In this document: in pieces, positions 29,365 through 30,723 of the stretch | Position numbering within the stretch: the first letter of the stretch is position 1 | How the letters are laid out: the number at the start of each line of letters is the position of its first letter | Assembly: GCA_947627075.1 (NCBI GenBank) | Contig: CANQUR010000003.1 | Span: 1 to 36,933, forward strand | DNA length: 36,933 bases | DNA from: an uncultured Clostridia bacterium | GTDB taxonomy: Bacteria; Bacillota; Clostridia; Christensenellales; Pumilibacteraceae | Direction of reading: 5' to 3' | Notes under the pieces: generated by a model | Databases searched by the model: none | What the model was told of the DNA's origin: nothing | What the model saw: only the letters and a program-made list of their open reading frames with translations | Translations under genes and position numbers: made by a program

Positions 29365-29410
29365 AGTAAAAAATTTCTATAAACTCATTATAACAGTAAA
29401 AAATTTCCAT
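29365..29410. promoter_or_regulatory. Paired operator-like direct repeats within/around the zinc-ribbon promoter
   Basis: AGTAAAAAATTTCTAT (29365-29380) and AGTAAAAAATTTCCAT (29395-29410), offset 30 bp. Confidence 0.7.
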
Positions 29411-29415
29411 GTCAA
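29387..29415 (-). promoter_or_regulatory. Consensus promoter of zinc-ribbon gene
   Basis: Minus strand TTGACA-N17-TATAAT (with TG extended -10). Confidence 0.85.
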
Positions 29416-29468
29416 GCGAAATAAAGTATATTCATAGTAAAATTACTTGCGTGGAGAAAAATATTAGT

Positions 29469-29750
29469 ATGAACAGATTGAGAGAATTGCGAGAGGATAG
29501 AGATCTGCGTCAAATCGATGTTTCGCAAGCAACAAATATAGATCAAAAGACATTATCGAACTACGAAACGGGAAAAACAAATCCCGACAGTTGGGCAATT
29601 ATTAAGCTTGCGGAATTTTTCGGAGTAACCTGCGACTATCTTTTGGGTGTCTCCGATAGAAATTTAAGAAATATGAGCGACGCTCTCGATGAATTGGACG
29701 CTATAAAAGTGCGTATAGACGAAATAAAAAGATTTTTGACAAAAGGGTAG
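29469..29750 (+). CDS. XRE-family HTH repressor-like protein
   Basis: MNRLRELREDRDLRQIDVSQATNIDQKTLSNYETGKTNPDSWAIIKLAEFFGVTCDYLLGVSDRN. Confidence 0.88.
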   Translation: MNRLRELREDRDLRQIDVSQATNIDQKTLSNYETGKTNPDSWAIIKLAEFFGVTCDYLLGVSDRNLRNMSDALDELDAIKVRIDEIKRFLTKG

Positions 29751-29772
29751 AATAGCAAAGAAAAAAGTGACC

Positions 29773-29877
29773 TTAGTCACTTTTGAAAACAACGGCTCCA
29801 AACGTCGAAAGATACCGTTCAATAGTGCTATCCACGACTCTTGGCTTGTAATTGTTCTCCCCGATAATTTTTGTCAT
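29773..29877 (-). pseudogene. 5' remnant of a DUF4143-type AAA ATPase gene (34 codons)
   Basis: MTKIIGENNYKPRVVDSTIERYLSTFGAVVFKSD*; resembles the N-terminus of DUF4143 ATPases (KPRVVD..IE.YL..FGAV.IEGPKWCGKT) and stops before Walker A; retains SD and TTGCTT-N17-TATAAT promoter. Confidence 0.6.
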
Positions 29878-29940
29878 CGCAAAACCTCTCGCTTCTTTTT
29901 ACTTATTATAGCACGTTTTTCGTAAAGAAGCAAGCCCATT

Positions 29941-30032
29941 CCGACAGATTTTGGATTTTCAACCCGACAGATTTTGTTTCATTAATCCGACGGATTTTAG
30001 ATTTTCAACCCTACAGATTTTGAGATGCTGAG
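29941..30032. repeat. Four tandem 23-bp units
   Basis: CCGACAGATTTT-type cores start at 29941, 29964, 29987, 30010 (exact 23-bp period). Confidence 0.8.
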
Positions 30033-30055: not shown

Positions 30056-30189
30056 TGGTAGGGAAGAGTGGACGCGTCACATACGGCGAAGCCGTATTCA
30101 CGGAGCGGAGCGAAGTTACACACCGACCTCCACTTATTTGCTAACGCAATGTTGCAGGGTGATGCTCTAACCGACTGAGCTACAAACCT
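30056..30189 (-). pseudogene. tRNA-Ile-derived element, copy A, with hairpin insertions in anticodon loop and T arm; acceptor mismatched
   Basis: AGGTTTGTAGCTCAGTCGGTTAGAGC...CCACTCTTCCCTACCA; 17-bp anticodon-loop insert and roughly 45-bp T-arm replacement. Confidence 0.75.
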
Positions 30190-30237
30190 TTAATTAGATT
30201 ATTACACACCGACCCCCACCTAATTTACGGAAACAAA

Positions 30238-30259
30238 AAAAGTGACCTTCGTCACTTTT
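30238..30259 (-). terminator. tRNA-array terminator, copy 2
   Basis: AAAAGTGAC-CTTC-GTCACTTTT; same hairpin at 29763-29784 and 30440-30461. Confidence 0.7.
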
Positions 30260-30392
30260 GGTAGGATTGAGTGGACGCGTCACATACGGCGAAGCCATAT
30301 TCACGGAGCGGAGCGAAGTTACACACCGACCTCCACTTATTTGCTAACGCAATGTTGCAGGGTGGTGCTCTAACCGGCTGAACTACAATCCT
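30259..30392 (-). pseudogene. tRNA-Ile-derived element, copy B, same two insertions, acceptor stem intact
   Basis: AGGATTGTAGTTCAGCCGGTTAGAGCACCACCCTG|CAACATTGCGTTAGCAA|ATAAGTGG...CCACTCAATCCTACCA; same 134-nt length as copy A. Confidence 0.75.
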
Positions 30393-30460
30393 TTAATTAT
30401 ATTATTACACACCGACCCTCACTTATTTACGGAAACAAAAAAAGTGACCTTCGTCACTTT

Positions 30461-30537
30461 TGGTAGGATTGAGTGGACTCGAACCACCGACCCCCACCTT
30501 ATCAGGGTGGTGCTCTAACCGGCTGAGCTACAATCCT
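30461..30537 (-). tRNA. tRNA-Ile(GAT)
   Basis: AGGATTGTAGCTCAGCCGGTTAGAGCACCACCCTGATAAGGTGGGGGTCGGTGGTTCGAGTCCACTCAATCCTACCA; full cloverleaf, encoded CCA, terminator adjacent. Confidence 0.95.
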
Positions 30538-30551
30538 TTATTTACATTATT

Positions 30552-30624
30552 ACACACCGACCCTCACCTTATTTGCTAACGCAATGTTGCACGGTGGTGC
30601 TCTGACCGACAGAGCTATGATTTT
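30552..30624 (-). pseudogene. tRNA-derived fragment, copy C, with the same 17-bp anticodon-loop insertion, 3' truncated
   Basis: TAGCTCTGTCGGTCAGAGCACCACCGTG|CAACATTGCGTTAGCAA|ATAAGGTGAGGGTCGGTGTG. Confidence 0.65.
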
Positions 30625-30647: not shown

Positions 30648-30723
30648 TGGTGGAGGTAAGCGGGATCGAACCGCTGACCCCCTGCTTGCAGGGCAGGTGC
30701 TCTACCAGCTGAGCTATACCCCC
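30648..30723 (-). tRNA. tRNA-Ala(TGC)
   Basis: GGGGGTATAGCTCAGCTGGTAGAGCACCTGCCCTGCAAGCAGGGGGTCAGCGGTTCGATCCCGCTTACCTCCACCA. Confidence 0.95.

Follow-up and report, generated by a model that had tools for sequence, protein, structure and literature searches.

Hairpin inserts in a nest of tRNA-Ile copies point to a hardly known type of miniature mobile DNA lodging in tRNA genes

Large integrating elements classically dock at tRNA genes. What has happened, then, at a tRNA-Ile gene that stands among damaged copies of itself, each of them interrupted by the same small hairpin? The question is raised by a contig of an uncultured Clostridia bacterium of the Pumilibacteraceae (GCA_947627075.1, contig CANQUR010000003.1), of which the whole stretch analysed here, 36,933 nucleotides, is called the window. 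Read along the minus strand, the locus runs from tRNA-Ala(TGC) through copy C, the intact tRNA-Ile(GAT) with its terminator and unit B with a terminator copy to unit A. We favour the explanation, with a probability of about 0.68, that miniature palindromic elements, among them a ~45-nt double-hairpin family that favours tRNA genes, were inserted into a nest of tandem, partly deleted tRNA-Ile duplicates. The features of the locus are listed below in window coordinates.

30648..30723, minus strand: tRNA-Ala(TGC), which opens the tRNA pair (ARAGORN; Rfam tRNA, 66.5 bits)
30555..30624, minus strand: copy C, a damaged tRNA-Ile (BLAST of the intact tRNA to the window; sequence)
30573..30589, minus strand: 17-nt hairpin insert CAACA-TTGC-GTTA-GCAA of copy C (exact search; BLAST)
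30461..30537, minus strand: intact tRNA-Ile(GAT) (ARAGORN; Rfam tRNA, 70.7 bits)
30435..30460, minus strand: tRNA-Ile terminator AAAGTGACGAAGGTCACTTTTTTT (sequence)
30401..30424, minus strand: relic of the 3' anticodon strand and T stem before unit B, GTGAGGGTCGGTGTGTAATAAT (sequence)
30259..30392, minus strand: unit B, a complete damaged tRNA-Ile copy with CCA, followed by a terminator (sequence; BLAST)
30341..30357, minus strand: 17-nt hairpin insert of unit B (exact search; BLAST)
30279..30319, plus strand: T-loop module of unit B, GTCACATACGGCGAAGCCATATTCACGGAGCGGAGCGAAGT (pattern search; BLAST)
30233..30258, minus strand: terminator copy behind unit B (sequence)
30198..30224, minus strand: relic before unit A, TTAGGTGGGGGTCGGTGTGTAATAAT (sequence)
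30056..30189, minus strand: unit A, a damaged tRNA-Ile copy with CCA and no adjoining terminator (sequence; BLAST)
30138..30154, minus strand: 17-nt hairpin insert of unit A (exact search; BLAST)
30076..30116, plus strand: T-loop module of unit A, GTCACATACGGCGAAGCCGTATTCACGGAGCGGAGCGAAGT (pattern search; BLAST)
29761..29785, no strand assigned: outlying tRNA-Ile terminator copy at the 3' end of an HTH gene (sequence; BLAST)

An earlier reading made from the letters alone (the sequence-only reading) had described tRNA-Ile copies with hairpins inserted precisely in the anticodon and T arm, and ARAGORN, BLAST and the sequence itself bear this out. Units A and B, 134 nt each, differ at ~9 positions, and in both the T loop is replaced by a 41-nt module, GTCACATACGGCGAAGCC(G/A)TATTCACGGAGCGGAGCGAAGT in the plus-strand reading. 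Copy C joins the 5' part of tRNA-Ile and the 17-nt insert to the stretch from A35 through the 5' strand of the T stem, where it is truncated. That each unit keeps CCA and the same terminator was too strong a statement, because copy C lacks both and unit A has no adjoining terminator; CCA is present in A and B, and the GTGAC..GTCAC terminator directly follows the intact tRNA-Ile and unit B only. The T-arm relic that had been seen to precede the units, GGTCGGTGTGTAATAAT, does lie upstream of both A and B, and it also precedes the intact tRNA, where it forms the end of copy C. The acceptor strands of unit B are, as stated earlier, still complementary, and those of unit A are mispaired (AGGTTTG/CTTCCCT). 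By BLAST, the intact tRNA-Ile(GAT) is the sole full-length match to itself in its own genome, and the Rfam scan matched tRNAs and no other family. Beside unit A, window 29935-30030 holds a degenerate tandem repeat of (C)CGACAGATTTTGGATTTTCAA. The HTH_3 regulator gene (window 29409-29785), whose 3' end holds the outlying terminator copy, is syntenic with G006, in which an array of at least eight tRNA-Ile pieces (L050, G006:C19:2500-10500) is followed, after the last ATAAGG junction, by a possible lipoprotein gene, a terminator copy and the same HTH gene.

The 1.5-Mb draft genome contains the 17-nt insert CAACATTGCGTTAGCAA exactly three times, always on the minus strand and in A, B and C; elsewhere in that genome, none was found with up to 2 mismatches allowed. 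In all three copies it lies at 35|36 of the 77-nt tRNA query, that is, between G34 and A35. This is the site that members of the ~45-nt module family use in other genera. The letters of the insert do not match those of that family, and it may be a second kind of element, or a remnant. An insert resembling it, CAACATTCGCCGAAGGCGAA, is found in G116 (L127). An intergenic repeat of ~150 nt in G059, G057 and G044 (L004-L006) has CAAGATTGCGTTAGCAA, one letter off the window insert, together with further hairpins.

The same kind of damage recurs among relatives. In the 74 genomes of the family that were searched for tRNA-Ile, partial copies lie next to the intact gene in many genera, and breaks at exactly 35|36 return in BLAST matches of other genera (G054, G055, G058, G105; reversed-pattern controls 0). 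Copies with hairpins at G34|A35 are found in at least six genera of the family, with the isolate Anaerocaecibacter muris (NZ_CALPCE010000002.1) among the carriers, and also in further families of the same order. An assembly artefact, against which the sequence-only reading had cautioned, is rejected, since independent genomes and an isolate show the same architecture. The sequence inserted at 35|36 varies by genus: it is CAACATTGCGTTAGCAA-like in the genus of the window, CTACGAAGCACGAGCGAAGCGAGT or CTACGAAGCAACCGCGAAGCGGTT in that of Anaerocaecibacter, and longer, with two hairpins, in another. The complete interrupted copies of G054 and G055 reach 39-44 bits as tRNA. A sequence-pattern scan, whose nine records include some unrelated coding matches, led to G114, G115 and G116; in these genomes, and in G147 and G182 from another family of the order, downstream units carry an inverted anticodon-arm copy or other hairpins in place of the tRNA 5' half. 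Except in G116, such units retain the 3' half, CCA and a terminator. In G147 (L148, G147:C4), protein genes, one of them HIT-like, lie between tRNA-Ile-derived units near 135-330 and 1290-1480; these genes could be cargo, or have simply been caught between duplicates.

Arrays come and go, since in the congeners G001, G002, G004 and G005 the gap between tRNA-Ala and tRNA-Ile is 12-31 nt and holds no copy. Truncated tRNA-Ile duplicates devoid of any insert (G019, G032, G038) show that duplication also happens alone, or that inserts can exit cleanly; because such copies exist, duplication is not accounted for by insertion alone.

The T-loop inserts lead beyond tRNA-Ile. In its fuller form the module is ~45 nt long, CTC-AGCCGAG-(stem 1)-CGAACGCCACGAG-(stem 2)-CGAGT, and folds into two hairpins; the letters AGCCGAG-(stem)-CGAACGCC are found in tRNA-Ile inserts of several families. 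Twelve copies are present in the genome of the window (reversed-pattern control 0), and 36 of the 74 family genomes hold copies. The window T-loop insert shares with the family the 18-nt 3' half CACGGAGCGNAGCGNAGT, which occurs 8 times in the genome, 2 of these being the window inserts themselves (reversed-pattern control 0). To judge by this shared half, the T-loop inserts of units A and B are members of the dispersed module family. That the inserts might be found nowhere else, an outcome that the sequence-only reading had envisaged, thus holds for the 17-nt insert within its genome but fails for the T-loop module and for the same-site inserts of relatives.

Modules interrupt damaged arrays of tRNA-Ile, Thr(CGT), Thr(GGT), Met, Arg(CCT), Arg(ACG), Leu and others, mostly adjoining an intact gene of the same kind, and they also lie inside some non-tRNA repeats. 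On contig 132 of the genome itself (L217; G000:C132:2500-3980), three interrupted copies of tRNA-Arg(CCT) flank the intact gene on both sides, with modules at the T-loop site TTCG^ATTCCC. The presence of such relatives of the T-loop insert in many kinds of tRNA points to a hardly known type of miniature mobile DNA at home in tRNA genes. Outside the family, a class-level scan of 391 genomes gave only two matches beyond the genome of the window, in G157 and G576. The match in G157, of the same order, is the only folded one outside the family in that sample; the one in G576, of another family, was taken as chance. The phage collection gave no match to the module, and the 57 matches in viral contigs are put down to chance, as 2 pass the stem cut and neither carries the module. 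Two further viral-contig matches proved to be unrelated coding sequence.

The stems have kept their pairing. When 17 distinct modules sharing one length are compared, 99% of the cells of stem 1 are paired and 33 cells are changed on both sides; slid controls fall to 19-44% paired; covariation is 0.838 against 0.184 in shuffled sets, and none of 500 shuffles reaches the observed value. The stem sequences of these 17 modules are hypervariable and the joining letters invariant. The earlier view that the locus is not random decay is therefore upheld for the stems of the module family by their strong covariation, and does not extend to the tRNA bodies, with the mispaired acceptor of A and the truncation of C.

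When the module was removed and its flanks were joined, a tRNA match ran across the junction in 39 of 70 copies, compared with 6.6% when each left flank was joined to a wrong right flank; the count of 39/70 includes a few junctions at which the right end was misplaced (L047, L107), and it overstates the number of events, because copies lying in tandem within an array cannot be taken as independent. After correction of the right ends, 41 of 74 modules rejoin a tRNA, and with one locus sampled per genome the figure is 9 of 20 complete modules. tRNA genes make up well under 1% of a genome. The rejoined tRNAs, in the case of Ile and Met, extend to 77 nt at 96-99% identity. Every one of the 41 tRNA junctions has G or C immediately before the insert, and 37 have AT after it, giving a target rule S^AT, in either orientation, with no visible target duplication and no letters repeated at the ends. 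Each kind of tRNA is entered at one or two sites (Ile G34|A35, Met C34|A35, the T loop of Arg and Leu, and sites in Thr and Leu-taa). Insertions are sense in Ile, Met, Arg and some Thr, and antisense in Leu-taa, Thr-ggt and most Thr-cgt. The double-hairpin DNA thus interrupts tRNA genes precisely, as it does a small number of other repeats, at S^AT and in both orientations.

The following course of events may be proposed. The module would insert as DNA between G or C and AT, preferring the anticodon loop, the T loop and the D side of tRNA genes, and would move, perhaps to this day, probably as a folded single strand acted on by a putative enzyme supplied in trans. Insertion would kill the tRNA, and lineages would therefore survive only with an intact copy alongside, insertions persisting only where a duplicate retains the function. 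Unequal recombination would multiply and trim the dead copies, and rounds of duplication, insertion and deletion would lead to the order [leader-5' part-insert]n, intact tRNA, terminator, [insert-3' part-terminator]n. The earlier suggestion of tRNA-derived mobile repeats came near to this, although the mobile part is better seen as the insert, and the tRNA pieces as tandem, partly deleted duplicates of the host gene. An RNA route is disfavoured because both orientations and non-tRNA targets occur, and RNA-level reverse splicing is rejected in view of the antisense insertions. A group I intron is rejected on size (inserts of 9-58 nt against at least about 200 nt), and there is no Rfam intron match. 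Nor does a Y1/RAYT transposase qualify as the mover, as PF01797 matches do not track module number: G003, G006, G008, G011, G014, G054 and G111, holding 9-28 modules each, have no match, and G018 has 6 matches and 0 modules. One might speculate further, though we lean somewhat against so broad a claim, that the modules form a shape-defined class of bacterial mobile DNA, double hairpins with hypervariable stems that a putative enzyme reads as folded strands, which home to S^AT in tRNA genes and drive repeated tRNA duplication, so that ordinary tRNA loci become nested arrays throughout an order of gut Clostridia.

Among the other explanations, the one that survives best, and which we nonetheless regard as unlikely, is a graveyard of integrative elements, in which tyrosine integrases used the tRNA as att site, the elements restored the tRNA, their later deletion left only displaced tRNA pieces and att remnants, and the hairpins are relics of integrase sites. 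Integration is known to leave pieces of tRNA next to intact tRNAs (PMC9897764; Islander, PMC4383910), and here too partial copies stand next to an intact gene; the anticodon loop and T loop are the classical points of integration, protein genes lie between two units in G147, and such a history would account for 3' pieces ending in a terminator. However, there is no integrase among the nine window proteins scanned around the array, the units are 100-300 bp apart, several units occur per tRNA, and the breaks carry a common hairpin module, unlike the fragments left by integrative elements. This 45-nt module, moreover, occupies non-classical positions in many tRNAs (Thr 9, Leu 17), lies in either orientation and is present in non-tRNA repeats as well; it has no match among phage records, and the viral-contig matches lack the stem. 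Integrative elements may contribute to the duplicates, yet they leave the common module unexplained.

Less probable again, and frankly doubtful, is that the units are functional structured RNAs, that is, transcribed tRNA mimics serving as decoys for a tRNA nuclease, synthetase or modification enzyme, or processing signals of the operon, with stems kept by selection on the RNA. The strong covariation of the stems speaks for it, as do the folding of the units, better than that of shuffles (z about -2.3 and -2.5), the upstream unit sitting between tRNA-Ala and tRNA-Ile, and the tRNA scores of the complete copies in G054 and G055. Set against these are the antisense insertions, the presence or absence of units among close relatives, the acceptor mispaired in A and missing in C, the modules in non-tRNA repeats and the lack of an Rfam family. 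The decoys or processed RNAs proposed by the sequence-only reading thus give way to events at the DNA level, which insertion in both orientations and into non-tRNA repeats favours. Very improbable, finally, is neutral slippage, in which template switching at tRNA cruciforms would form and perfect palindromes in the absence of any mobile element: inverted half-site copies beside some inserts (L121, L122, L148, L206) and hairpins stacked in loops would fit, but local template switching predicts neither letters joining the two hairpins that are identical across families and different tRNAs nor clean empty sites, although it may have shaped stems and inverted half-sites.

Taking the inserts as mobile palindromic elements, we find by analogy that the module family appears, in the way it works, to come closest to the mobile GC clusters and the hairpin elements known from mitochondrial genomes. 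Yeast GC42 (PMC4478555) and sponge RHE (PMC2800124) are mobile palindromic elements whose mechanism of movement is not established; like the module, they are ~40 nt long, non-coding and dispersed, have one or two hairpins, merge with one another and interrupt sequences that are recognisable after their removal (39/70 versus 6.6% for the module). The module differs in being bacterial and in its strong preference for tRNA genes, in showing no target duplication, where GC42 is flanked by AG or ACT repeats (PMC4478555), and in having hypervariable stems and conserved joining letters, whereas GC42 and RHE have conserved stems and variable loops. REP/REPIN sequences, which go with RAYT (Y1) transposases (PMC3733652, PMC2817692, PMC3116915), are likewise small, dispersed and often clustered bacterial palindromes, of 20-40 nt and with mismatched stems; their defining mark is a GTAG or CGTC tag at the palindrome's foot (PMC3733652). 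The ends of the module, CTC-AGCCGAG and CGAGT, carry no such tag. It lies inside tRNA copies and its stems are hypervariable, whereas REPs are mostly extragenic, and the module-richest genomes have no PF01797 match, unlike REP with its RAYT. Rickettsia palindromic elements are small palindromic bacterial elements within genes, as here; likened by general description only, they have, to our knowledge, no preference for tRNA genes. A literature search, in which few subscription journals were covered, returned no description of such hairpin elements in tRNA copies.

That gene-free elements of ~45 nt recur in copies of many tRNAs, leaving an intact copy beside the damage, makes several questions testable: which enzyme moves the hairpins, why tRNA genes are preferred, and how an essential gene survives as a favoured target. 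The modules also offer natural series of hairpin sequences in which the stems are free to drift as long as they go on pairing. For annotation they are a warning, as tRNA scanners score some of the interrupted copies as tRNAs.

Some modules lie in more complex settings. In L226, L206 and L191 the module is succeeded by the tRNA half-site and then by an inverted copy of that half-site (ATTCGTAATCTTACGAAT, ATAACCCGAACGGGTTAT), and these inverted half-sites look as if they were folded-back broken ends. At L178 (G025:C2), L203 and L204, modules lie in or beside palindromic repeats of the GTCATTGCGAGG type, a palindrome within a palindrome. In the genome of the window, nine modules (L210-L216, on C17, C25, C27, C35, C36, C81 and C126) are housed in a second, larger composite palindromic repeat, CCTTCCCC..GGGGAAGG, CTCCGCCGTAGGCGG, many of them near contig ends.
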